Virus record (IMG/VR): IMGVR_UViG_3300025098_000078 | Coordinates: 1 to 48,381 of that record | Length of the DNA stretch: 48,381 bases | Origin: a virus | Direction: 5' to 3' (one strand) | In this document: in pieces, positions 1-37,856 of the stretch | Layout of the letters: every line of letters begins with the position of its first letter | How positions within the stretch are numbered: the stretch's first letter is position 1 | Notes under the pieces: generated by a model | Told to the model about the DNA's origin: nothing | Seen by the model: only the letters and a program-made list of their open reading frames with translations | Database searches by the model: none | Position numbers and translations under genes: made by a program

Positions 1-1331
1 TTCTTAGTAGTAAACAACGTTCCGTTAGGACACATAGTAACGCCGTCTAGGGTGCTTGTATCAATCTCACGGTTTAGTAGTTTGTCTACATTAATACCGC
101 TCACACGGTCATCCAGAAGGGTCTCAGGAGAGATATTATACTGCATGATGAGGTGTGGATACAGTGAGTTAAGGTCAAAGTTAACTACCCAATCATAAAT
201 GCCTGGAACAGGTTCTTTCACATAAGCACCAGCATACTGCTGATCTTTAGTACTCTCAGTTTTAGGAGGAATAATAATATTTTCCTGAGTGAGAGCATCA
301 TAGATGATACTATCCCACATACGAACCTGATAGAATACATCCTCAAAGTTTACCTTGGCATCATATGCCATAGTAACAGCGAGTTCAATCAGTTTCATCT
401 TATCTTCCAGCATGTCTACAAGTTCAACGTCATGGATGTTGTACTCAATAAACTTCTGCCAATCACTACGATAGAAGTCCTGAAAGTTCTCGAACTCAGA
501 GTGATCGAGTTTCTTCTGTCCTAGTTCCACAAAAGCAATGTGGTCTAAACGATAAGATTCTTGATTGGTGTAAGTAAATTTTTGATAGAGATCATAATAG
601 TCAAGGGTAGCAACACCGATGATATCATAATAGATCTTCTCCTGACCCTTCACAAACAACTTACGTTCACGAACAGAGTTCCATGGCGACATAGATCTCA
701 TATGCTTGATACTTAGCATACGATCAATGCGACGGCAGATGAATGGCATATCAAAGAACTTGACATTCCACCCAGTGATTACATCAGGAGTTTTCTGCAC
801 CCAATACTCTAGGAACTTAAGAAGAAGTTCACGTTCATTCTGACAATAAACATAATGAACATCATCACGGGAGTTTCTAAACTCACCGCAACCCCAAGTA
901 ATAATCTTCTTACTAGTAAAGTCTTTTACAGTAATGCAAAGAATTTCTTCCCGTGCTTCCTCAACACTAGGAAATCCATTCTCAGATGTAGTCTCAATAT
1001 CAAGAGACATGATATTAAGTTGACTGAAATCATAGTCAACTTCTTTAGGATACTTACTCAGGATATACTGATATAAGTATTTGGTATTGCCGTAGATAGT
1101 AAAGTTATCTACTGCCTCATAAGTATTAACAAACTCTTTAGCATCTTTAATGCCGCCAAAATGAACGGGTTCTACACAGTTGCCCTCAAGAGTTTTATAT
1201 TTGGTCTGATTTTTTGATGAGACATAAAGAGTTGGAGAGAAGTCTTCACGACGCTCAATCCTTTCACCCCCGCTAAAACCACGATACAAAACTGTATCAT
1301 TGATGATAGCAACATTAGTATAGAAATCCAT
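1..1331 (-). CDS. 43: DNA polymerase gp43, family B (partial, C-terminal part outside window)
   Basis: Replicative DNA polymerase with 3'-5' proofreading. I translated the minus strand from the ATG at 1331; the frame stays open to base 1, so about 443 N-terminal residues are present and the rest lies beyond the left edge. Visible exonuclease motifs are SLDIETTSENGFP (Exo I), TGWNVKFFDMPFI (Exo II) and YNIHDVELV (Exo III), followed by polymerase motif A, NFDLNSLYPHLI. The start overlaps the preceding stop by one base (TGATG), which implies translational coupling to the small Sm-like gene. The other replisome parts (gp45 clamp, gp44/gp62 loader) are encoded upstream in the same direction. Identification is firm. 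Confidence 0.97.
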   Translation of the reverse strand, partial: MDFYTNVAIINDTVLYRGFSGGERIERREDFSPTLYVSSKNQTKYKTLEGNCVEPVHFGGIKDAKEFVNTYEAVDNFTIYGNTKYLYQYILSKYPKEVDYDFSQLNIMSLDIETTSENGFPSVEEAREEILCITVKDFTSKKIITWGCGEFRNSRDDVHYVYCQNERELLLKFLEYWVQKTPDVITGWNVKFFDMPFICRRIDRMLSIKHMRSMSPWNSVRERKLFVKGQEKIYYDIIGVATLDYYDLYQKFTYTNQESYRLDHIAFVELGQKKLDHSEFENFQDFYRSDWQKFIEYNIHDVELVDMLEDKMKLIELAVTMAYDAKVNFEDVFYQVRMWDSIIYDALTQENIIIPPKTESTKDQQYAGAYVKEPVPGIYDWVVNFDLNSLYPHLIMQYNISPETLLDDRVSGINVDKLLNREIDTSTLDGVTMCPNGTLFTTK

Positions 1332-1582
1332 CAAGCAATAGCATCACGATATAATTTTAGCAGACTATCCATAGGATCCACGATAGTAATAATATCACTA
1401 GACCTAATAGGAATCTGTTTTTGATATGAATATGGAACAAAATTTTCCATAATAAAATCTGGAATAAATCCAATCACCACTTTAGGGTTGATGAGGATGC
1501 AATCAGCATCTTCTTCTGGACGTTCTTCAATCTCCGAGATCAGATATTGACCCGTCTTCAGCAATAGAACTTTTACTGTCAT
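1331..1582 (-). CDS. Small Sm-like protein, paralogue A (83 aa)
   Basis: Function unknown. The N-terminus (VKVLLLKTGQYLISEIEE) and C-terminus (IVDPMDSLLKLY) match four other proteins in this window, at 1527, 6891, 12705 and 30123. The shared pattern is a beta-hairpin around LLKSGExI, an NP-V step, then a V..I.DP....Y ending. The length and strand pattern recall the Sm/LSm fold, but that is inference. I chose the ATG at 1582 because AGGAG lies 6 nt upstream; a GTG at 1585 is the alternative. Its 5' end and ribosome site lie inside the 3' end of paralogue B, and its stop overlaps the gp43 start by one base. Confidence 0.8.
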   Translation of the reverse strand: MTVKVLLLKTGQYLISEIEERPEEDADCILINPKVVIGFIPDFIMENFVPYSYQKQIPIRSSDIITIVDPMDSLLKLYRDAIA

Positions 1583-1889
1583 CACGAACTCCTATGTTTT
1601 TAATGTAACTTTCTTTGATATTATCTTGGGGGTCGCAAATGGTAACTACCCAATCTTTATTGACAAAATACTCTTCTGATTTAGAAGTAGCGAGCCATGG
1701 AACGAAACTTAAAACACTGTCTGGTGATTCATTAGCACCCTCAGTGAGAACGCCCTGTTGAACTACAGTAACACGTACAGGTTTAATCATGACAAATTCC
1801 ATAAGTTCCTGAGTTTCGCGATCAATGATCTCACGAAAATCACAAACTATTTCCTCCCCAGATTTGAGGAGAACTAATTGAACGGACAT
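1527..1889 (-). CDS. Small Sm-like protein, paralogue B (120 aa)
   Basis: Second copy of the Sm-like family, function unknown. It shows the fullest motif set: QLVLLKSGEEIV near the start, a KPVRV step, LSFVPWLATS around residues 80-90, and VVTICDPQDNIKESY near 100-115. Its conserved core ends before about residue 103. The remaining acidic tail (DDSKSSIAEDGSISDLGD) is encoded in the stretch that also encodes the first 18 or so codons of paralogue A in another frame. An AGGAG box sits just upstream of the ATG at 1889. The neighbours are gp43 downstream and the nucleotidyltransferase upstream, so replication-linked expression is likely. Confidence 0.82.
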   Translation of the reverse strand: MSVQLVLLKSGEEIVCDFREIIDRETQELMEFVMIKPVRVTVVQQGVLTEGANESPDSVLSFVPWLATSKSEEYFVNKDWVVTICDPQDNIKESYIKNIGVRDDSKSSIAEDGSISDLGD

Positions 1890-4396: not shown

Positions 4397-4779
4397 TGCT
4401 TACCACCTTTACTCAATTTAAGTTTAATACAATTTAGCTGTTCGTCAGAAAGAAGACTAAGAGCGGATCGTGCTTTCTCATTACTATAACCATAATAAGT
4501 TTTCACTATTTCCAGATCTGTAATTTTTTCCTTTTTCAACCACGGAGAAAATCTCCGTTTTGGTCTGACAATATTTAGTAAAAATTCATATTGTAGTTTC
4601 TTGGATAAGTGGTGGTTGATATTAATCTCATTCGATACCATTATAGTATCGATAAAACCAGACAGACACTTGTTAATAATGAATGGTGGGTATTCATTTT
4701 TGTTCTCATCAGTCATGATGTTTTGTTTCTCATGATTGATAGAATTCAACCAATGTTTCAGTTCAGTTTTCGCCATCAT
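4393..4779 (-). CDS. 62: Sliding clamp loader small subunit gp62
   Basis: Small subunit that with four gp44 subunits loads the gp45 clamp. The 128-aa protein is much shorter than T4 gp62 (187 aa), as is usual in cyanophages. Motifs typical of the cyanophage form are LKHWLNSIN, YPPFIINKCLSGFIDTIM, KKLQYEFLLNIVRPKRRFSPWLKK and YYGYSNEKARSALSLLSDEQL. It overlaps the upstream oxygenase by an ATGA and regA by an ATGA. Position just before regA agrees with T4, but gp44 is separated from it here by five genes. Confidence 0.92.
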   Translation of the reverse strand: MMAKTELKHWLNSINHEKQNIMTDENKNEYPPFIINKCLSGFIDTIMVSNEININHHLSKKLQYEFLLNIVRPKRRFSPWLKKEKITDLEIVKTYYGYSNEKARSALSLLSDEQLNCIKLKLSKGGKQ

Positions 4780-5327
4780 CTCATTTCAAAGTATTGGTTT
4801 TTAGTAGCACCCTTAGGTTTAGGCCAAGAATGTATATCCATAGCCATAGTTATACGAACATCATCAAAGTTATTGGGTGGAACCCAGTGATGAACACTAG
4901 AAGAAAATAACATTAATTCTCCTCTATTGTTATCACATTTTTCTCCCTCAAACCACGTCCCTAAATCAGGATTACCTCCTATAAAAAGATTAGTACAAGT
5001 CCAATCTACTCTAGGTGCGTCAGGGTCTCTAGGATCTCGATGGCAATGTTTAGCAATACCTTCTCCTTTCCTAAAAGTATTTGCCCAGCATTGAACAAAT
5101 TTCCTGCGTCCCGAAACTATCTGTAATTTAGGAACAATAATATCAGCAACCACATTATCATAAAGATAATTATGACACCAATGTCTTCCGGTAAGAGAAT
5201 TAGTAGCAGTACCCATATGAACATCTTCACCAAGGGATTTCACATGTTCTTCTGTTTCTAAAATTCTAGCATAAAGAATATCACATTCTTCAATGCTCAA
5301 AAAATTAGGAATTTTAAATGTTTTCAT
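4776..5327 (-). CDS. 2OG-Fe(II) oxygenase family protein (183 aa)
   Basis: Probable iron/2-oxoglutarate-dependent dioxygenase. A possible facial triad is visible: H96-x-D98 in KHCHRDP and H146 or H147 in SSVHHWVPPN, with R158 positioned to bind the 2OG carboxylate. The segment FIGGNPDLGTWFEGE fits the middle of the double-stranded beta-helix. Cyanophages often encode such enzymes; substrates are unknown. It overlaps gp62 by 4 nt and follows a second oxygenase by 2 nt, so both are expressed with replication genes. Base composition is more AT-rich than gp44/gp45, suggesting a separate origin. Confidence 0.85.
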   Translation of the reverse strand: MKTFKIPNFLSIEECDILYARILETEEHVKSLGEDVHMGTATNSLTGRHWCHNYLYDNVVADIIVPKLQIVSGRRKFVQCWANTFRKGEGIAKHCHRDPRDPDAPRVDWTCTNLFIGGNPDLGTWFEGEKCDNNRGELMLFSSSVHHWVPPNNFDDVRITMAMDIHSWPKPKGATKNQYFEMR

Positions 5328-5329
5328 AA

Positions 5330-5920
5330 TTACTGATAATCAAAACAAGACCAAATAATATTTTTTGTTCCCTCGTTTACAGGGATAGATTTATGAATGA
5401 AGTGAGGACCACAAGGAAAAACTAATATACTATTCTTGATAGGTTTCACTGAAATATTTTCATTAAAAAATTCAGTTTCACCTCCCATAAAACTATCATT
5501 TAAATAAAAGATAGCTGATAGAATAAATTTAAACTTGCCATGTAAATCAACATGCCACTTATACTCTTCATCAGTTTCATAATTTCTAAAATGAAATCTA
5601 GTACCTATTTTTTCAGGACACGTAGCGATTAATGTATGAGAGAATAAACTATTGTCATTAGTATATCTTTCCCAAATGTCAAAATAAATTTTATTAAGAT
5701 CACTAGTAACTTTTAAAAGTTTACCTTTAGATTTTGGGGAATAGTGGGACTGAGATAATTGAGTTATATCATAACTACTATTTTTTACAAAAAAACTTTG
5801 TTTCCTGGGATTAATTTTAGGATCATTATGAGCAACTTCCAAACAAGTTTGAAGTATACTATCAGTATCTGCTACATTTAGATACTGCCAAATAAAATTA
5901 CTGTGTTTAATTACTTCCAT
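5330..5920 (-). CDS. 2OG-Fe(II) oxygenase family protein (196 aa)
   Basis: Second dioxygenase, prolyl-4-hydroxylase-like. From the ATG at 5920 the metal ligands would be H123-x-D125 (KWHVDLHG) and H176 (HFIHKSIPV), with K186 in EGTK as the 2OG-binding residue. YLNDSFMGGETEFF is the classic core strand-loop of this family. A GTG at 5944 would add eight residues but I see no support for it. The start lies inside the last codons of Dam (14-nt overlap). AT-rich, little like the other oxygenase in sequence, so probably not a recent tandem duplication. Confidence 0.88.
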   Translation of the reverse strand: MEVIKHSNFIWQYLNVADTDSILQTCLEVAHNDPKINPRKQSFFVKNSSYDITQLSQSHYSPKSKGKLLKVTSDLNKIYFDIWERYTNDNSLFSHTLIATCPEKIGTRFHFRNYETDEEYKWHVDLHGKFKFILSAIFYLNDSFMGGETEFFNENISVKPIKNSILVFPCGPHFIHKSIPVNEGTKNIIWSCFDYQ

Positions 5921-6743
5921 AATTAAATAGCAAGAGTTCAGCACGATCTTTCTGTTCGTTCATATAATCACCTGTAGACCTCATGGTATAAGTCAGATCA
6001 TAAGTACAGGTCATCCAGTCTCTGAAGCGGTCCTTGACCATCTGAGCGGAGTTATATGAGATTAACTGACGAGCAAGGTGGTTGTCGCAATCAGCAGCAA
6101 ACTGATCATGATCGAAACGCTTATGCAAATCTCCCTTGTTACCATAGAGATTATCTTTGATATCATAGGGTGGATCAGAATATATAAAACAACGTAGATT
6201 GTCTGTAAGCAGTCCTTCATATGACCAGTTAGTAATTTTCCAGTTCTGAATTATTTCTGAGTATCCTTTTAGTTTCTCGATTCCACGCACTGTGAAGTTG
6301 GCATCTGATGCCTGCCTGCTAAAGGATGAGGACTCAGTGAGACCAGAAAAAGAGCACTTGTTAATAATGTAAAAACTAACAGCACGAGATAGATGGGATT
6401 GATCATAATCATTAACCAGTTGTTTTGCTTCAATGAATAAATTTTTTGCTGATACAGGTTCAGGATGTTGCTGCTTAAGTTTCAATAACTCATCACATAA
6501 TTCCCGACTGTAATCTTGAAGAACTCTCCAGAAGTTATACAAAGGTTCGTAAAGATCGTTCACCCACACAGGGATATCTGGGTGTGCTTTAGTGAATGCG
6601 ATAGCAACACTACCACCACCTAGAAATGTTTCCCGATACTCTTCAATGCCATCAGGGAAACGTGGAATAAGATACTTGGTAGCGCGAGACTTACCACCAG
6701 GATATCTAAGCGGCGTCTTGAGAGACTTCAAAGTTTGGTTCAT
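5907..6743 (-). CDS. dam: DNA adenine methyltransferase (Dam)
   Basis: SAM-dependent N6-adenine methylase, 278 aa, D12 class. Residues 10-19 (TPLRYPGGKS) and FLGGGSVAIAF at 40-50 form the SAM-binding motif; SDPPYDIKDNLYG around 189-201 holds the catalytic DPPY. The target is probably GATC as in T4 Dam and E. coli Dam (family knowledge). It may protect phage DNA or regulate packaging. The 5' end overlaps the preceding small gene by 38 nt and the 3' end overlaps an oxygenase. Confidence 0.95.
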   Translation of the reverse strand: MNQTLKSLKTPLRYPGGKSRATKYLIPRFPDGIEEYRETFLGGGSVAIAFTKAHPDIPVWVNDLYEPLYNFWRVLQDYSRELCDELLKLKQQHPEPVSAKNLFIEAKQLVNDYDQSHLSRAVSFYIINKCSFSGLTESSSFSRQASDANFTVRGIEKLKGYSEIIQNWKITNWSYEGLLTDNLRCFIYSDPPYDIKDNLYGNKGDLHKRFDHDQFAADCDNHLARQLISYNSAQMVKDRFRDWMTCTYDLTYTMRSTGDYMNEQKDRAELLLFNYGSN

Positions 6744-28765: not shown

Positions 28766-29560
28766 TTATCCGATCATGTCTAGTGGTGGTTCTTCTGCTG
28801 CTAACCTAAATTCACCAAGAATTGTATCAATTTCTTGCTGTGCATCTTCATAGAACTCTCTACCGTTTAGAGTTGTTCCACCAGGCAGTTGGACATTTTT
28901 AAATTTGATAAGGTTTTGACCCCACTGTCTTTTAATAAGAGCAGTAAGATAACGCTTCATCCATACATCATTATATACTTCAGTAGCAGTTTCTGGATCT
29001 ATCATCCTATAGCATTCAATCAAAATCATATCACCGCCATTCAACTGATCCCAATCAGTATCGAGATATAGTTTATTTTCTCTCTTATTAAATCTAATCG
29101 GTTTGAAGTTACCGATCACAAAATCAAGTGTTTCCAGATATTGCTTTACCATATAATAATTCAAGATTTCCATAGAACCAAAGTTATAGAAATCATTCAA
29201 AAATAACTGATACTTCATACTGAAGATATTTCCTGATACTGCTGATGAACTATTGTCATAAGCATATATGTTGGTTATTCCCAGAACATGGTTTGGTACA
29301 GTTATAAAATTATTTTGCTCCTTAAAATCCGAACCAGCAATTGCACCGTTCACTTTCGCGTCGGTAATCATCTGATCGGTTACTTCTAGTTTTAAAAATG
29401 TTTTGACGCTTCCATCAAAATGACGCTCTTGAAAGAACTGAATTGCATCATCTACGAGATCTTCAACTTGATCATCATCTACATTAATCTCTAATACTGG
29501 GAAACCTAATTTCCTCAGACAATAATCAATTAGCTCCTGGCGTGTCGAGGGTCTTGCCAT
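28766..29560 (-). CDS. 13: Neck protein gp13
   Basis: Neck/head completion protein, 264 aa (T4: 309). It starts MARPSTRQELIDYCLRKLGFPVLEINVDDDQVEDLVDDAIQFFQERHFDG, a highly conserved cyanophage gp13 beginning, and has ALIKRQWGQNLIKFKNVQLPGGTTLNGREFYEDAQQEIDTI near the end. No ordinary ribosome site is adjacent to the ATG; the leader is a hairpin that overlaps a late promoter. Confidence 0.95.
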   Translation of the reverse strand: MARPSTRQELIDYCLRKLGFPVLEINVDDDQVEDLVDDAIQFFQERHFDGSVKTFLKLEVTDQMITDAKVNGAIAGSDFKEQNNFITVPNHVLGITNIYAYDNSSSAVSGNIFSMKYQLFLNDFYNFGSMEILNYYMVKQYLETLDFVIGNFKPIRFNKRENKLYLDTDWDQLNGGDMILIECYRMIDPETATEVYNDVWMKRYLTALIKRQWGQNLIKFKNVQLPGGTTLNGREFYEDAQQEIDTILGEFRLAAEEPPLDMIG

Positions 29561-29613: not shown

Positions 29614-30027
29614 TTATGATAAGGGATTACAGTCTACACATTCGGAATTCCAATCAGGATTCCTTTTTTGATATGCCACAAATTCATCATCATCATGAAT
29701 AATTTTTCCTTGCTCATCACGAATTAGTTTGCCATCCATAGTATAAAAACATTTATCACCCAAATCTTCCCAATTTGGATCTTTCTCAACTTGATTTAAA
29801 AACCAATCTTTTACTGATGCAATATTATCAAAAACTCTTACTTGATCCTGAAACTCACACCACCATAAAAGTTTCTCTACAGGGATTTCTGTTTGTTCAG
29901 TATTTTCAAATTCTTCAGTGTCTTCGTCATCAAGCATTGCTTCAATCGTCATATAGGTATCTTCACCATGCTTATCTTCAATCTCTCTAATTACATCATA
30001 GAGAGGGATATCCGTAACAGAATTCAT
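29614..30027 (-). CDS. Acidic phage protein, 137 aa, unknown function
   Basis: Not recognised. From the ATG at 30027 it starts MNSVTDIPLYDVIREIEDKHGEDTY and has an acidic stretch (LDDEDTEEFENTEQTE). EKLLWWCEFQDQVRVFDNIASVKDWFLNQ is aromatic-rich. A compact C-terminal part has CFYTMDGKLIRDEQGKIIHDDDEFV and ends NSECVDCNPLS with a CxxC. A longer frame from 30057 would put the ATG before the predicted transcription start of the CTAAATA element at 30060, so the shorter start is preferred. It is divergent from the plus-strand cassette. Confidence 0.75.
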   Translation of the reverse strand: MNSVTDIPLYDVIREIEDKHGEDTYMTIEAMLDDEDTEEFENTEQTEIPVEKLLWWCEFQDQVRVFDNIASVKDWFLNQVEKDPNWEDLGDKCFYTMDGKLIRDEQGKIIHDDDEFVAYQKRNPDWNSECVDCNPLS

Positions 30028-30059
30028 TTTTAGTATTACTAAATAAAACAACAACATAT

Positions 30060-30066
30060 TATTTAG
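30060..30066 (-). promoter_or_regulatory. Late-promoter variant CTAAATA
   Basis: AACTAAATAATAT on the minus strand, 33 nt upstream of the ATG at 30027; identical over 13 bases to the element before the gp67-like gene. Confidence 0.5.
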
Positions 30067-30071
30067 TTACT

Positions 30072-30099
30072 TTGAAGTGACTGAAATCTGTGTTATAAT
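30072..30099 (+). promoter_or_regulatory. Sigma70-type promoter of the plus-strand cassette
   Basis: TTGAAG (30072-30077), 16-nt spacer, TATAAT (30094-30099), 23 nt before the ATG of the first plus-strand gene. Early, host-polymerase-type expression is expected, unlike the surrounding late genes. Confidence 0.68.
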
Positions 30100-30122
30100 G
30101 TACTATAGTTTATTTAAAAAAA

Positions 30123-30563
30123 ATGAGTATTCAACTTTGTCTTCTGGAGACCGGAGATACTGCTATTGGTGATATTCGAGAAGCAATTGATCCCGAGACA
30201 AATGTGTCATTGGGATATATCGTAACAAATCCATTTACAGTTGAGCATGTGATCAACAATGTAGTTAATGCTGATAAAAATCTATCCAGTCAGAATACAT
30301 CTCCCGAAGGTGCATCATCAATTGCATTCTCGATTTGGGGTCCACTAGCTAGATCTAGAACTTTTAATTTTCATAAAGATTTTGTTAGAGTAATTTACGA
30401 ACCATCAAATTTTCTTACTGAAAAATATATGGAAATTATTCAAAAATGGCAAGAAGAGAATACTGTAAGTGTTGAAGTAGATAATGCCCTGACTAATCTA
30501 TCAGCAAGAATAAATCTTGCAGATGAGGCGGAAGGAAATACATCAGATGAAACTGTGAACTGA
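30123..30563 (+). CDS. Small Sm-like protein, paralogue E (146 aa), plus strand
   Basis: Fifth family member and closest in layout to paralogue B: SIQLCLLETGDTAIGDIREAIDPETN, VTNPFTVEHV, IAFSIWGPLARSR, FHKDFVRVIYEPSNFLTEKYMEII. The motif order and spacing match, with an added 35-residue acidic tail (LADEAEGNTSDETVN). The leader has no Shine-Dalgarno, only an A-rich run before the ATG. It is the first gene of an AT-rich cassette whose other two members are double-stranded beta-helix proteins. Function unknown. Confidence 0.82.
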   Translation: MSIQLCLLETGDTAIGDIREAIDPETNVSLGYIVTNPFTVEHVINNVVNADKNLSSQNTSPEGASSIAFSIWGPLARSRTFNFHKDFVRVIYEPSNFLTEKYMEIIQKWQEENTVSVEVDNALTNLSARINLADEAEGNTSDETVN

Positions 30564-30572
30564 GGAATTTCA

Positions 30573-31361
30573 ATGAGAAAAGATAAAATTTTAACCATTG
30601 GGCAAGAATTATTTCAAACAAATAAACCATTTGAAATTACTGAGTATGATAACTGCATAACTATAGATAATTATACTTATAACATAGATAAAATAGAGGA
30701 AACTTTACTTAAAATTCCTGCAACTAATTGTCATGAAATAAATGAAATTTTTTATTATGGGGAAAAAGAAACTGAATATGTAGGAACTCCTGGTATCACA
30801 CAACCAGTAACTAAAGACTGGGTTCCTCATTACATTAATGATGTTTATACATGTCTCAGTGAAAAAGATTATTTAATTCCCAATCCTAATACTAGTCCTA
30901 ATATTCTCAACAATCTCGTAGCATTTTCTGCCACCGAAGCAGTTCTTTTCTATGAAGAGATGGTTGTAGATAAAAGTTGTAATGTTCCTTCTCCTGCAGG
31001 GGGAGAATTCTTTAGTACATTATGTTTTGATGATGATACTGAAGATAATAAACTAGGTATTACATTCTTTGATTTTATTTTTGAAGGAAGAAAATATTCA
31101 TGTCTTGATGATTTTTCTATCGAAGACGATGAGACTAGAGAACAAATTTTTGAAGTACTTAAAGACTTTGGGAGTGGACTTGGCGGATTAGAATTATATA
31201 ATGAATTTACTGGATCCGAATGGTTTGAACCTACCGAATATATTGAATCAAAACGAAATAGATTAATTGCATTTAAAAGTAGTTATTTTCATATTAGGAA
31301 TTTTAGTGAAGGTGAAAGATATACATTAAATACTTCTTTCATGGCACCCAAATATAATTAA
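30573..31361 (+). CDS. Double-stranded beta-helix-like protein without visible iron ligands (262 aa)
   Basis: Not firmly recognised. The C-terminal part, GLGGLELYNEFTGSEWFEPTEY followed by SKRNRLIAFKSSYFHIRNFSEGERYTLNTSFMA, has the rhythm of the last strands of 2OG oxygenases, where an H is followed by G.RYTLN. A proximal HxD pair is not seen, so catalysis is doubtful. A GAGGAA ribosome site precedes the ATG. It lies 9 nt after the Sm-like gene and 5 nt before a more complete oxygenase-like gene. AT-rich composition marks it as part of an acquired cassette. Confidence 0.72.
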   Translation: MRKDKILTIGQELFQTNKPFEITEYDNCITIDNYTYNIDKIEETLLKIPATNCHEINEIFYYGEKETEYVGTPGITQPVTKDWVPHYINDVYTCLSEKDYLIPNPNTSPNILNNLVAFSATEAVLFYEEMVVDKSCNVPSPAGGEFFSTLCFDDDTEDNKLGITFFDFIFEGRKYSCLDDFSIEDDETREQIFEVLKDFGSGLGGLELYNEFTGSEWFEPTEYIESKRNRLIAFKSSYFHIRNFSEGERYTLNTSFMAPKYN

Positions 31362-31366
31362 ATCTG

Positions 31367-32143
31367 ATGACTTTAACTCTAGATAGTTTCAATAGATATA
31401 CATCACAGGAATTAGCATTTCTAACTGAAATTAATGAAGAAGTAGAAATTAAACTTATCAAAGAAGGTGATATTAAGTATATTAGGGCAACGAATATACT
31501 AAAAAGACCTGATCAATTGGCAGAATTTTTATCTAAATTTCCTGCAGAGGACAGAAATAAAACAATTTTTGATGGTGGTTTCACTGAGAACACAAGTTCT
31601 GCTCCAGGATTCCAGCAATATATTAAAGATTTTTATTTTTCTTCGTGGAATAAATCCATATTTAATATTGGTAAAGACTACAAACTTTATAAGTATACTA
31701 AGTGTAAATTTGATAATTTTACTAATTGCTGTTATCCAGGAATGTTAGCATATGGAAAAAATTTTTTACCACATACAGATTCATTTGGAGTTGCTGCTAA
31801 TGTTTATTTAACTGATGTGCCAAATACTTATACTTCTTTTTTTAGAATAAAAACTAAGAGTGGTAGATATATTCATAATGAATTTGACTTAAAATATGTT
31901 TCGAGAGAAGATGCAGACGATTTGAGGGAAAGATATCAAATATATTCTAATGAAGATACCTGGGAAGATTGGCAAGAATTTAAAGGTGATGCATTTTATG
32001 AAAGATATTTACAAATTCCTTCTGAATATAATTCAATGAATATGTATAAGGGTAATATTTGGCATAGTATCACATACAATTCAAAAAAATCTCCTTTACG
32101 ATACTCTTTAGTTACTGCAGTAATTCCCCATATGGGACATTAA
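31367..32143 (+). CDS. Probable 2OG-Fe(II) oxygenase-like protein (258 aa)
   Basis: A possible iron triad is present: H136-x-D138 in FLPHTDSFGVAANVYLTD and H233 in GNIWHSITYN, with R245 in PLRYSLVT placed for 2OG binding. The spacing between the first two ligands and the third (95 residues) is typical of the fold. The N-terminal 120 residues are unknown and may be substrate-binding. It is the last gene before a bidirectional terminator. It is not a close copy of the two oxygenases at 4776 and 5330. Confidence 0.75.
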   Translation: MTLTLDSFNRYTSQELAFLTEINEEVEIKLIKEGDIKYIRATNILKRPDQLAEFLSKFPAEDRNKTIFDGGFTENTSSAPGFQQYIKDFYFSSWNKSIFNIGKDYKLYKYTKCKFDNFTNCCYPGMLAYGKNFLPHTDSFGVAANVYLTDVPNTYTSFFRIKTKSGRYIHNEFDLKYVSREDADDLRERYQIYSNEDTWEDWQEFKGDAFYERYLQIPSEYNSMNMYKGNIWHSITYNSKKSPLRYSLVTAVIPHMGH

Positions 32144-32172
32144 AAAAGGGGGCATATGCCCCCCATTTTTTT
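32142..32172. terminator. Bidirectional terminator between convergent units
   Basis: Perfect palindrome GGGGGCATATGCCCCC (32148-32163) with six A before and seven T after, so it can stop both the plus-strand cassette and the minus-strand transcript of the 1888-aa gene. Confidence 0.92.
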
Positions 32173-32189: not shown

Positions 32190-35100
32190 TCATGCCTGGG
32201 ATTCTTGCCAGGTAACCCTTGCCGATACAGCAAATGCGTTCGCTGTAGAAACTCCGGTAGAGTCAACGATATTCGCTACGACTGTAAGAATATCAGGACC
32301 GTTAGGATAGGTGCCATCACCACCTAGAATGGAGTTACCCATGTCGGAGATAGCACTTAGATCATAGTCGGTTGATGTAGATTCTCCAACACCAGCACCA
32401 GCGGCGCGGAATGAAAGAATTGTAGAACCACCAGATACTGTTTCATTCGGACCATGCTTCACCAACTGACATAGTGAAGGTTCCTGAACATCCTGATAAG
32501 CATCTGTGCTTAACTGACCATTCAGTTTCAAACTAATCTCCGTTTCGTGTGTGGTGAGAATACCAACGGAAGCAAGTTTAAGTTGCATTCTGTTAATGAT
32601 TTCTCTTTCACCAAGAGCACCTGTAATTGAAGAGTCAACTGAAGGAGCAAGTCTAATTGAGATAAGTGGAATATTCTGTGGAATTGGGTTATCAGCACCA
32701 TCTGGAGCACCAACTGACATTGTTGTGCCATTAGGAACAACGATACATCCATTAGATCCGCAAAGATTTCTTTGGATATTATCAGTATGGTATCTGTTGA
32801 AGACTGATTGAGTTCCTTCAAAATATTGAATATAAACTTGATGGAAGCTTCCAGATGTTCTAGTTCTTGTATCAATAGCACGACCATCAATGAAGTAACC
32901 AGTAGCAATGCTGTTATTATAAATCAGAGTGTTAACAGGAAGATTTGCAGCATCTCCTGAAGGGAAGTAAAGAACTAAGAAATATGTTCTGTAGTAGTTA
33001 CTTCCTTGATATCTCTCCGAAGTAATAGCAGAGTTCGCGGTAGTATTAATGTTAGATGAAGATTCGTTCGTGAACTTCTGGACGTTTCCTGAAGCAGTAA
33101 ACAAATACGCATCATCATTCTGGAACATACCATCCATGATAACTGAAGTACCCCAGTGGAACAGAGTTCCAACATAACTTGGATTACTTGTATTTTCGAT
33201 CTCATAACGTGCAGGCAGGTTACCTGAACGGAAGTAAGATTCAGTTAATCGGTTGTTATGCTTGAATTCATGGACATACTTAACATGACCGTTCTGATCC
33301 TTAAATCCGAAACGGATCTTACCAGCACCGTACCAGGAGTAATCCATGTAGCACATCTGGATCTTAGTGATATCCAAGTTAAATCCTGATGGACCATAAC
33401 CATCTACTTTATCAATATTCCAGTCACTCTGCCCTGCCCTTGTATCAAGTGTCTTGGTACAAATAACGTTAGTGGCATCAACACCTCTATATGCAGGTTG
33501 GATGGTAATCTGAGTGTTGTTAGTAACTTTAACAACTTTATATGACATACCACGAACAACAATATACTCTCCTGTAACCAGTTCGGAAAGGAATTTTGTA
33601 TTAGTTCCAGTGATGATATTGGTATTTTTTTGTACCGTAACTGTTCCTGGAAGTTGAAGAACAGAACTTCTTCTTACACAGTTAAGTGTAGCTCCATCAA
33701 ATTCATAGAAGAAACCATTCTGATCATCAAACATACCTGCGCGAATGTGGCAACCATCCCAAGAAAGGACTTGTGCTTGTGGGAACCCACCTGAACTATT
33801 TCTAGCTGGTTCTGTATCCAGGAGATACTTGAAGTCGTAATCACTACTGATTTCAGTAACTTGACTTGAAATATTCCAAGCACTATCATCAGATTTGATA
33901 ATCTTAATTTCAAGATCAGCACTTAAATTATGTGGTTTAGATGTTGTTACAACACCTTCAATAATTCTACTATAAGTTAAAGATTCGGCTGAGAGTGGTG
34001 AAGTTGTATCTGAGGTAATTCTAAAAGTAGTAGAATTAAGAATTTCGATAATTCTAGTTCCATCGGGAATACCTGTTCCCGAAATTCCCATGTTTTTCAG
34101 TAAGGTGGAAGTGTCAGCAACAGTCAGAATTTCAGAATCTTGAGCTGCAGTTGTCGCAATTATTTGAGTAGTTCCTCTCGTTGTATATGAAAGATCCAGA
34201 ACAGGAATCAACGGAATAAAGTTGATCGCGTATGAAGTCTGAATACCTTTACCTGACTGATAACGGAAGTACTTACGAGTCTGTCTAGAAATTTTAGAGT
34301 TGGGTGACTTAGAAGTACCAATTTCCATACCGCCGTCAAATGGTCTATGCAAGAAGAAACCGTCAGGACGTACATATATGTAAGAAGGAATCAGATAGAC
34401 AATACTTGAACCAGTAAAATCAATTGCATCTTCAACAAGAAGATTCAAGTCATCTTGAATAGCAGTAATAACTGCTTCTTTAACTACACCTGGAGTTGTA
34501 GTAGGATCTACTATTCTAATAATATCACCAATTTTGAAGAATCTCTCGAAGGAAGTTCCTGTTCCAACAATTGCTCTTGATCCAGATACAACCTCAATAT
34601 CACCAACACCAGTTACTTCACCCGAAAGATTGTTACTAACAAGTCTGTGATTACCAACACCGGCACCAGTAAGAGAAATAGCAACAGGTGATGCTGCAGT
34701 CGCATCTGCTTCGGTGGCAGCAAGTTGAATGAAATTATGATCTAGAGTAATTACATAGTAATCTACATTGTTGGTTAATCCAGTAACCTCGGTTCCTCCA
34801 ACAGTATCATAGATAACTCTAGTTCCTGTTGAGAAGAAGTGATTTGGAATATTGATACTATCATCTGAAGTATTAATACTTGCAGAAGAATCAAATCCTT
34901 TTGATGTAGGTGGAATTTTGAATGGAATTGTAACTTCCAATTCATTCTCACTAACCGCTTTAGTAGTCGTATACGAACCATCAACTACGCCAAAAGCAGC
35001 AGTAGTATTTTCAAACGTATGATTACCTACTCCATTATCAGTTAAGTCAATAGTTGACCCACCTTGAGTTGAAGACAATGTAAATCTATTTGCATTAATA

Positions 35101-37856
35101 GGATACACATAATATGAATTGCCACTAACTAAAGGATTAACTACTGTTCCTGTAGTTTCATATTTTACAAGTTCACCAGAAGAGAATTGGTTATCTGCAA
35201 TATAGAAAGAGTTTCTGGTTGGGTTTGTAATAATAGCAGTGAATGTAGTTACACCAGTAGCACCAGCAAGTCTTAGTGCTGACGCTCCAGTTGATGTCTT
35301 AATTCTAAATCTATCATTACTAATTTTTTCAACATAGTAAGTACCAGAAGTGAACGAAGTTCTCTGACTGTTACCAGTTTCTTGATTATAGTAATGAACG
35401 GCACCCGTTGTTGTGATTACAACTGGATCATTTGTGGTGAAACCATGGTCTTCCTTGTAGAAAGAATCATTAGTAGATGTATTTCTCTTAAGAAGAACAA
35501 TATATGCGTTGGTATTACCATCAGAATTAATACCACGGAAATCGGTAGTTGGAGAACTATCGTAACCTGCTTGTCTATACCAGAAGTAGTAGTTATTACC
35601 GCGCAGACGGAATTGGTAATCACTCTCATCCTGCATGTAAATGTTATCAGTCCAGTATGTTTTAGCGTTTCTTCCGCTATATCCACCTACGGTATAACCA
35701 TAGCTATAGTTACCATTATTGTCTCCATTAACACCTTGGTTTTCATGATCAGTCAAGAAATCATAGTTTCCTTGCCATTGTGTATTACCAAGAGGAAGAG
35801 ATTGGAGTTCATCTCCATAAGTTTTCCATCTAGTGCCCCAGTTATTCCAGTGTGCTTTATATCTATATCTGGTAGGATGACCTGAGCTAATGCCAGCTCC
35901 ATATCTACTTGTTGAGAAGAACGCAGTAATATCCCACGGTGTTCCTCCTAAACCATAGGTTCCATTGTTTACAGCAAAATCATATCCAGAATAAGTGTTT
36001 CTGTTGGTACGATAGAAAGTACGATAGTAAACATACCAATTCTGGTTTGGCATATATTCACTTTGAATGTTATAAACAAGTCCTAAATTATGAGCACCCT
36101 GATCAAAACTACCGCCAGTAGAAAGATTAACGGTGTAATTCATTCTCTGACTATGATTTAATTTAAAGGTGTCATTTGACAGTCTTTCAATATAATAAAC
36201 CTGCATTCTGGACAGACCACCTATTGGTAAATCACCAGGATTAGGATAGTATAATACTGCTGCTTTATTATGGAAACCATGACCGATCATGGTAATAGTG
36301 TCAGTTCCATAATTAACATCAGATTCTGGGAACCTCTTGGTATAAGTTGATTCGTAGTTATAAGGAACTCTTTGAGTAGGATCCTCATCATTAGCAATAT
36401 TAGCTTGGTCTGCATCATCAGCAATGGGTCTACCATCTGGAGCATTTGTTTCAATCAGCGGAATCTCAAGGATTTTTGGTGAAACCGTATTTACGAAGTA
36501 GAAATTTGTATTATCCGCAAATCCATGTTCTGCCCTAGTTGTAAGAAGAACTTTAGTATTTGATGCAAATTCTAATGCAAGGGTGCCACCCATTCCATTG
36601 TGATTTGTGCAATGGTAGTGTAGTGTATTATATGAAGGTGAAGTTGTAGTAATAAATACTCTAGTATATGCTCCTGCACTTCCTGGAGTTCCTACACTAT
36701 AAACATACTGAGTTAATGCAGTTCCTGCACCATCTGCCTGATCGTTGAAAGCAATTGGATGAGTAGCATTGCTAGCATCAGATTGATCAAAGATATATAC
36801 AGCATTCCTGCTCAAAGAGAAATTTGGATCCAGATAATCATTTAAGAAATACTTATTACCACCAGCAGCAACACCATTATTTGCAGCAGTTTCTAGCGTA
36901 TAATCTACTGCAGCACCAGTAATTGTAATTACTTCTTCAGCATCATAAGCACCAGTAACAGCAATAACAGTAAGTGTTGAACCATCTACTTTAGCAATAG
37001 TTCCTGCAGTACCAGTTGATTGACCTGAAACTGGTTGACCAACTACAACATCAATGTCAAAAGGTGTAGTCGATGTAAGAAGAGTAGTAGCTTTTACTGT
37101 AACTCTTTTGGTGAAAAGATCAGCTGTAATACCTTTGGTTGTATCCAGATTTACTTGAGCACCTTGGAAAAACTTACCAGGAATAATAGAAGTATAAGTT
37201 CCTTGAAGTTCTTTTGTTTCAGATTGAGCAGCTCTACCTTTATATGTAAATGTTTCGTTAGATGGAACTGATTGAATTAGGTATGAACCTTCAGCAGATA
37301 GTGAAGAAAGACCAGTTACAGTAATTGGAACACCAGTTACTAAACCATGCTCAAATTCACATGTTACTGTGATAATCTCACTACCATCTGTTGCTTCTAC
37401 CTTAGTAATGAATGGGATTGTAGTATCAGCAGTAGACGCATAGAATGAAGGAATATTATTAATAGTCTGAATGGTTTCCCACTTAGAAGCCTGAGGACCA
37501 TACTCAAAGTCGGTATCAATCAGGTTTTCTGGATTTGAAACTCTAAATTTAGAGACAGCATCAACATAAGTTTCTGATGGTTCAATAGCTACATAATCTT
37601 TCTCATAAAAGATTTGTAACTCGTCCTCGGCGGACATTGATGAACAATCATAACGCAATACAAAAACAGATTCTTCAGTTACTTCATCATATGTCCTAGA
37701 AACTAGTCCTAGAAATGCATCAGCAAAATTGTAGATGTTGACGTTATCGGTAATATTCGTTACAAGAAGCAAACGCTTACTTGGAATATTGCCTTTTATT
37801 CTGATCGTATTGGTATTCGGATCAAAAGTATAATAGGTAATTAATTTCTTTGCCAT
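32190..37856 (-). CDS. Large virion structural/tail-fibre-like protein (1888 aa) with cupredoxin-like segment
   Basis: Beta-rich, Gly/Thr/Asn/Ser-rich and without enzyme motifs over most of its length, as in cyanophage tail-fibre or baseplate-associated proteins. Residues about 325-432 form a separate module with THPIAFN and LHYHCTNHNGMGGTLALE: the H...C-x2-H-x2-M arrangement is that of type-1 copper (cupredoxin) sites. Several repeated motifs of the form F...HGF.T.D.V.(Y)..TG (about residues 780-1040) look like domains duplicated within the gene. AAAGGAT lies 7-8 nt upstream of the ATG. The C-terminal ARVTWQESQA is short and polar. Confidence 0.83.
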   Translation of the reverse strand: MAKKLITYYTFDPNTNTIRIKGNIPSKRLLLVTNITDNVNIYNFADAFLGLVSRTYDEVTEESVFVLRYDCSSMSAEDELQIFYEKDYVAIEPSETYVDAVSKFRVSNPENLIDTDFEYGPQASKWETIQTINNIPSFYASTADTTIPFITKVEATDGSEIITVTCEFEHGLVTGVPITVTGLSSLSAEGSYLIQSVPSNETFTYKGRAAQSETKELQGTYTSIIPGKFFQGAQVNLDTTKGITADLFTKRVTVKATTLLTSTTPFDIDVVVGQPVSGQSTGTAGTIAKVDGSTLTVIAVTGAYDAEEVITITGAAVDYTLETAANNGVAAGGNKYFLNDYLDPNFSLSRNAVYIFDQSDASNATHPIAFNDQADGAGTALTQYVYSVGTPGSAGAYTRVFITTTSPSYNTLHYHCTNHNGMGGTLALEFASNTKVLLTTRAEHGFADNTNFYFVNTVSPKILEIPLIETNAPDGRPIADDADQANIANDEDPTQRVPYNYESTYTKRFPESDVNYGTDTITMIGHGFHNKAAVLYYPNPGDLPIGGLSRMQVYYIERLSNDTFKLNHSQRMNYTVNLSTGGSFDQGAHNLGLVYNIQSEYMPNQNWYVYYRTFYRTNRNTYSGYDFAVNNGTYGLGGTPWDITAFFSTSRYGAGISSGHPTRYRYKAHWNNWGTRWKTYGDELQSLPLGNTQWQGNYDFLTDHENQGVNGDNNGNYSYGYTVGGYSGRNAKTYWTDNIYMQDESDYQFRLRGNNYYFWYRQAGYDSSPTTDFRGINSDGNTNAYIVLLKRNTSTNDSFYKEDHGFTTNDPVVITTTGAVHYYNQETGNSQRTSFTSGTYYVEKISNDRFRIKTSTGASALRLAGATGVTTFTAIITNPTRNSFYIADNQFSSGELVKYETTGTVVNPLVSGNSYYVYPINANRFTLSSTQGGSTIDLTDNGVGNHTFENTTAAFGVVDGSYTTTKAVSENELEVTIPFKIPPTSKGFDSSASINTSDDSINIPNHFFSTGTRVIYDTVGGTEVTGLTNNVDYYVITLDHNFIQLAATEADATAASPVAISLTGAGVGNHRLVSNNLSGEVTGVGDIEVVSGSRAIVGTGTSFERFFKIGDIIRIVDPTTTPGVVKEAVITAIQDDLNLLVEDAIDFTGSSIVYLIPSYIYVRPDGFFLHRPFDGGMEIGTSKSPNSKISRQTRKYFRYQSGKGIQTSYAINFIPLIPVLDLSYTTRGTTQIIATTAAQDSEILTVADTSTLLKNMGISGTGIPDGTRIIEILNSTTFRITSDTTSPLSAESLTYSRIIEGVVTTSKPHNLSADLEIKIIKSDDSAWNISSQVTEISSDYDFKYLLDTEPARNSSGGFPQAQVLSWDGCHIRAGMFDDQNGFFYEFDGATLNCVRRSSVLQLPGTVTVQKNTNIITGTNTKFLSELVTGEYIVVRGMSYKVVKVTNNTQITIQPAYRGVDATNVICTKTLDTRAGQSDWNIDKVDGYGPSGFNLDITKIQMCYMDYSWYGAGKIRFGFKDQNGHVKYVHEFKHNNRLTESYFRSGNLPARYEIENTSNPSYVGTLFHWGTSVIMDGMFQNDDAYLFTASGNVQKFTNESSSNINTTANSAITSERYQGSNYYRTYFLVLYFPSGDAANLPVNTLIYNNSIATGYFIDGRAIDTRTRTSGSFHQVYIQYFEGTQSVFNRYHTDNIQRNLCGSNGCIVVPNGTTMSVGAPDGADNPIPQNIPLISIRLAPSVDSSITGALGEREIINRMQLKLASVGILTTHETEISLKLNGQLSTDAYQDVQEPSLCQLVKHGPNETVSGGSTILSFRAAGAGVGESTSTDYDLSAISDMGNSILGGDGTYPNGPDILTVVANIVDSTGVSTANAFAVSARVTWQESQA

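Follow-up and report, generated by a model that had tools for sequence, protein, structure and literature searches.

The window, a 48,381-base IMG/VR virus fragment of a T4-like cyanophage, contains an operon of three genes (ORF1-ORF2-ORF3) at 30123-32143 on the plus strand. The minus strand carries regA, clamp-loader genes, a helicase, gp23, gp20, the tail sheath, the terminase, gp15 and gp13. In its major capsid protein the phage is about 70% identical to the nearest isolates. The host is likely a cyanobacterium, since the 177,686-base record of a relative has two photosystem reaction-centre genes. The features of the three-gene cassette and its flanks are as follows.

28766-29560, minus strand: gp13, a neck gene, on the left flank (phrog_211, E 3.8e-48)
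29614-30027, minus strand: x0, a small divergent gene with no function assigned, co-inherited with the cassette
30039-30045, plus strand: late-type motif CTAAATA, at -84 from the ORF1 start
30060-30066, minus strand: late-type motif CTAAATA for the divergent x0
30072-30099, plus strand: sigma70-type promoter TTGAAG-N16-TATAAT with an extended TG, with 23 nt between the end of the -10 and the ORF1 start
30123-30563, plus strand: ORF1, 146 aa, DUF6561/phrog_431 family, probably Sm-like (phrog_431, E 9.5e-16)
30573-31361, plus strand: ORF2, 262 aa, double-stranded beta-helix (DSBH) homologue of ORF3 without the iron and 2-oxoglutarate (2OG) residues (hhalign, model)
31367-32143, plus strand: ORF3, 258 aa, predicted Fe(II)/2OG oxygenase of the DUF6445 family (PF20043), probably active
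31772-31780, plus strand: codons of the ORF3 HxD motif, H136-T137-D138 (alignments)
32063-32065, plus strand: codon of the ORF3 distal His, H233 (alignments)
32099-32101, plus strand: codon of the putative 2OG-binding Arg of ORF3, R245 (alignments)
32147-32164, both strands: bidirectional intrinsic terminator, separating ORF3 from the convergent virion gene
32190-37856, minus strand: virion structural protein, 1888 aa, convergent, on the right flank (phrog_5838, E 9e-177)

The start of x0 is placed at 30027 rather than 30057, which is favoured by the alignment offset relative to its relatives. As claimed in an earlier note on this DNA, the three cassette genes are the only credible plus-strand genes in 48 kb; the remaining plus-strand ORFs are antisense to minus-strand genes. 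The cassette also splits the late region as described there, with the divergent x0 and the neck genes, including gp13, on one side and the large convergent virion gene on the other. The same note gave the cassette a lower G+C than its flanks. This is true of ORF2 (0.29) and ORF3 (0.28), but not of ORF1, which at 0.35 equals gp13. Low G+C is also found in the cassette relatives and elsewhere in the window, for example in an oxygenase gene at 5330-5944 (0.28). None of the defence-system models matched any of the three cassette proteins. Elsewhere in the window, tandem 2OG-Fe(II) oxygenase genes (PF13759, PF13640) occupy 4776-5944 in the replication cluster, next to gp62; the second of the two has a G+C of 0.28.

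ORF3 scores 26.4 bits against DUF6445 (PF20043), above the cut-off of 24. Its relatives score 29.2, 25.4 and 29.6, with one slightly below the cut-off at 23.5. The tetrad H136, D138, H233 and R245 (HxD...H...R) is invariant in 27 of 27 proteins, comprising 23 ORF3 relatives and four DUF6445 proteins from isolates. The AlphaFold model has a pLDDT of 92.5 and matches PolD, P4H and PHD2 in the PDB. ORF3 thus has the iron triad and downstream Arg on a DSBH fold by which Fe(II)/2OG oxygenases are recognised. The alignments and the model strongly support the prediction of a working DUF6445-type Fe(II)/2-oxoglutarate hydroxylase. Normalised by query length, the TM-scores of the PDB matches of ORF3 and ORF2 are under 0.5, and the identities are 7-15%, so the matches identify a fold but not a substrate. 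Sequence searches with ORF2 and ORF3 against solved structures gave nothing credible, and no ORF3 relative was found in prokaryote genomes. A sequence match to phospholipase C (E 0.0045) was rejected because the catalytic motifs lie outside the aligned part. The literature search found no paper naming DUF6445. Three isolate proteins, syn9 gp213 (L104), SShM2_041 (L146) and SSSM7_030 (L147), are named 'minor coat protein' in RefSeq/phrog_1644. This is probably a misnomer, since all three keep HxD...H...R, and reconsideration of the phrog_1644 label is suggested.

By hhalign, the families of ORF2 and ORF3 are homologous (99.65%, E 4e-25, 235 columns). The full tetrad is absent throughout the ORF2 family (0 of 24 proteins). 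ORF2 reaches 14.6 bits against PF20043, and its relatives 19.6 and 18.3. Because its score is under the cut-off of 24, it is not filed as a DUF6445 member despite being a homologue of ORF3. The AlphaFold model of ORF2 (pLDDT 83.3) matches OGFOD1, P4H and PHD in the PDB, and its nearest viral structural neighbours include other cyanophage proteins. Therefore, the earlier description of two DSBH proteins, with an iron triad in one only, is confirmed by hhalign, by the models and by the residue counts. In the tree, which takes its support from SH-aLRT alone and has long branches flagged, ORF2 forms one clade (93) and ORF3 another (98), so a single duplication appears to be older than all of the cassettes seen. 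The ORF2 reading frame is open in every aligned cassette and the dN/dS is 0.10-0.57 in seven pairs. ORF2 is thereby shown to be an ancient duplicate of ORF3 which lost the metal and 2OG ligands and kept the fold under purifying selection. Since the fold was retained under selection despite the loss of the ligands, ORF2 is most likely a non-catalytic partner.

ORF1 is connected to Sm-like proteins through two genes at the left end of the window.

3-1334, minus strand: partial DNA polymerase gp43
1331-1585, minus strand: second DUF6561/Sm-like gene, overlapping the next (DUF6561 60.6 bits; PDB 3by7, E 1.8e-4)
1527-1889, minus strand: ORF1 relative near the DNA polymerase gene (DUF6561 27.9 bits, cut-off 27; Sm_like, E 0.006)

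ORF1 is 28.6% identical to the product of 1527-1889. Through this gene and 1331-1585, phrog_431 is linked to DUF6561, weakly to Pfam Sm_like, and to PDB 3by7. The relative of ORF1 in contig L016 matches DUF6561 below the cut-off, and the direct comparison of ORF1 with 3by7 gives a weak score (E 0.56). The Sm-like assignment made in the earlier note is therefore probable, by way of the profile chain from phrog_431 to DUF6561 to 3by7 rather than by a structure. From these profile links, ORF1 is a probable Sm-like protein and a paralogue of the genes beside the DNA polymerase. The overlapping pair at 1331-1889 directly adjoins the polymerase gene, and in isolates the relatives of ORF1 are located between hsp20 and gp43, just like the two copies in the window.

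Relatives of ORF2 (55-66% identity) and ORF3 (30-63%) are found on viral metagenome contigs. The widest search gave 33 loci with an ORF3 relative, of which 32 are long enough to show the site; several of the 33 contigs are near-duplicates and the distinct cassette lineages number about six. In all 32, x0 and the same virion gene enclose ORF1, ORF2 and ORF3, with no change in their order or orientation. The genes were never seen apart, which supports the proposal that the trio is a functional set. Relatives of gp13 were found at 80 loci. The trio is present in the three closest of these that reach across the site (L024, L025, L027) and in none of those whose gp13 is 55% identical or less, many of which are incomplete. 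L016, L018, L136 and L138 have a fourth plus-strand cassette gene, which is 2OG oxygenase-like. Its 180-aa product (L016:7834-8376) has matches below the cut-off to 2OG-FeII_Oxy_3 and to NCBIfam FlmC. Several further types of cassette have one or two 2OG oxygenase genes of PF13759 between gp13 and x0, on the late strand. Such extra PF13759 genes are present at L114, L115, L117, L120, L121, L122, L134 and L137 and are absent from the lineage of the window.

One rival reading makes the cassette an AT-rich genomic island or moron that was acquired recently; the earlier note had suggested acquisition as a unit. The G+C of ORF2 and ORF3 is under that of the flanks, and the genes are on the opposite strand with their own promoter and terminator. 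In the isolate S-BM3, only 68 bp, without any gene, separate gp13 from the virion-gene homologue (40% identical over its best stretch), so the cassette is an insertion relative to S-BM3, but an old one. The earlier note had set absence from close relatives as a test, and the insertion is instead present in every site-spanning relative with gp13 at 83% or more. Down to gp13 identities of 44-45%, all relatives examined carry the trio at this site with a similar low G+C, a result that the earlier note had named as refuting its proposal, and a single ancient duplication lies within the cassette. Recent acquisition is therefore very improbable. Most likely the operon is old and resident in a single lineage of uncultured T4-like cyanophages.

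The sigma70-like promoter proposed earlier is at chance level when the window region is scanned alone with a consensus (14 sites vs 15.9 in shuffles), but it is conserved in position. A TTGA-type -35 with a TATAAT-like -10 is located upstream of ORF1 in 17 of 17 relatives, against 0.25 expected. The plus strand of the window has no CTAAATA other than the late-type motif at 30039-30045, and [AC]TAAATA is found between -100 and -65 upstream of ORF1 in 17 of 17 relatives (0.49 expected). This plus-strand motif could instead serve the leader of x0. The bidirectional terminator is also upheld: terminator-like sites in the region number nine, compared with 1.2 in shuffles, and an equivalent hairpin directly follows the stop codon in 19 of 19 three-gene cassettes. 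It is absent from the four-gene cassettes that were checked.

The cyanophage late promoter is NATAAATA (PMC2984593). Genes of S-PM2 that correspond to middle genes of T4 are described with both an early and a late promoter (PMC2984593). With a sigma70 promoter and a late motif both upstream of ORF1, the operon fits this middle-type layout. Since the two are conserved together, the promoter sequences suggest that expression may be middle or continuous rather than early only. Thus the proposal of early expression is supported in part, by the conserved sigma70 promoter, and weakened in part, by the late-type motif conserved upstream of it.

These signals also bear on the suggestion that the trio is an early host-takeover module, which would act soon after infection by modifying or binding translation factors, ribosomal proteins or RNA of the host. 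The conserved sigma70 promoter, the orientation of the operon away from the late genes and the presence of an Sm-like component are consistent with such a role, and the nearest folds include OGFOD1 and a P4H that acts on EF-Tu. However, the late-type motif is conserved too, and fold matches of such low identity cannot assign a substrate. An early host-takeover module is rather unlikely.

The history of the locus was compared by pairwise identity in 15 phages with a 264-aa gp13. Identity in gp13 is uncorrelated with that in x0, ORF1, ORF2, ORF3 and the cassette-side end of the virion protein (Spearman coefficients from -0.13 to 0.01), whereas these five correlate with one another (0.61 to 0.80). 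L133, for example, is 97% identical to the window in gp13 and 37% in ORF3, with no detectable blastp match in ORF2. By these sequence comparisons, the block of x0, cassette and large virion gene has been swapped as a unit among relatives, independently of gp13. The unrelated similarity patterns on the two sides indicate recombination, with a breakpoint likely in or near the conserved gp13.

It is possible, though doubtful, that the oxygenase set modifies the phage itself by hydroxylating the large virion or fibre proteins encoded alongside. The cassette and the adjacent virion gene have a history different from that of gp13, but plain linkage alone can account for what they share. Oxygenase genes of the 2OG type repeatedly adjoin large virion or fibre genes, both at this locus and in isolates. 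In S-SSM7, Sf-FS3 and S-ShM2, a DUF6445 gene is grouped with other 2OG oxygenase genes in the vicinity of a tail-fibre or fibre-like gene; the syn9 homologue, on the other hand, has psbA, hli and thioredoxin as neighbours and not virion genes. The late-type motif upstream of ORF1 would suit a modifier of virion proteins, but a late modifier needs neither the opposite strand nor an early promoter. The virion neighbours of 1888 aa and 2431 aa have no collagen-like Gly-X-Y repeats, and modification of the phage itself suggests no role for the Sm-like protein.

On balance, a resident operon of a macromolecular hydroxylase (ORF3), a pseudoenzyme partner (ORF2) and a probable Sm-like protein (ORF1) is the favoured reading, if only by a modest degree of confidence. 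In this operon, host RNA polymerase would start transcription early from the sigma70 promoter, and the upstream late-type motif would probably keep the genes on later. The bidirectional terminator would insulate them from the convergent virion gene. ORF3 would most likely act by hydroxylating a macromolecule, with the non-catalytic ORF2 most likely binding the substrate or regulating ORF3. ORF1 would probably form a ring that binds RNA or protein and may act in the same complex or pathway as ORF2 and ORF3. For the substrate, large virion or fibre proteins of the phage itself are the leading, if tentative, guess, because oxygenase genes are clustered next to genes of this kind both here and in several isolates. 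The next guess, a weak one, is a host factor. It is more speculative that the three proteins form a hetero-complex, in which the active hydroxylase and its obligate dead paralogue would sit on an Sm-like ring and modify RNA, a ribosome-associated protein or a virion protein during infection of a cyanobacterium.

A metabolic role for ORF3 is improbable. By consuming 2-oxoglutarate, the enzyme would shift the host nitrogen signal (NtcA). Uncoupled 2OG turnover by such oxygenases is usually slow, and neither the Sm-like gene nor the dead paralogue kept in 24 of 24 cassettes would be explained. The window phage does have several other 2OG oxygenases, and a role based on 2OG has been proposed for cyanophage oxygenases generally (Sullivan et al., PMC3037559).

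Cyanophages have many 2OG oxygenases. An active copy, a dead copy and a probable Sm-like protein kept at one site through deep divergence make a compact test case, since three small proteins can be co-expressed and probed for a complex and a substrate.

A 2OG oxygenase is usual as an auxiliary gene in T4-like cyanophages (Sullivan et al. 2010, PMC3037559), but an operon of an enzyme, its dead twin and an Sm-like protein at a fixed site in the late region was not found described. GenBank phage isolates have only distant homologues of ORF3, and two different queries found no match to ORF2 in them. Neither an isolate nor a paper with the arrangement of three genes was found. The families are known; the operon at its fixed site is undescribed, as far as the collections and papers covered show.

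Each of the three proteins can be compared with a known system. ORF3 shares the HxD...H...R tetrad with DUF6445/phrog_1644 proteins such as Synechococcus phage syn9 gp213, but its identity to gp213 is 28% and the locus is different; the DUF6445 genes of isolates have other neighbours, with no ORF2 relative found. ORF1 belongs to phrog_431 and is linked by profile to the group of DUF6561, phrog_431, 483 and 527 and the Sm-like PDB 3by7. It differs from the DUF6561/3by7 proteins in its longer C-terminus and in its location in an oxygenase operon rather than beside the polymerase. The folds of bacterial P4H, PHD2, OGFOD1 and PolD match ORF3, and ORF2 less closely, at 7-15% identity; the iron and 2OG ligands are missing in ORF2. 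OGFOD1 pairs a catalytic and a degenerate DSBH domain within one chain, whereas in the cassette the active and degenerate members of the pair, ORF3 and ORF2, are separate proteins.
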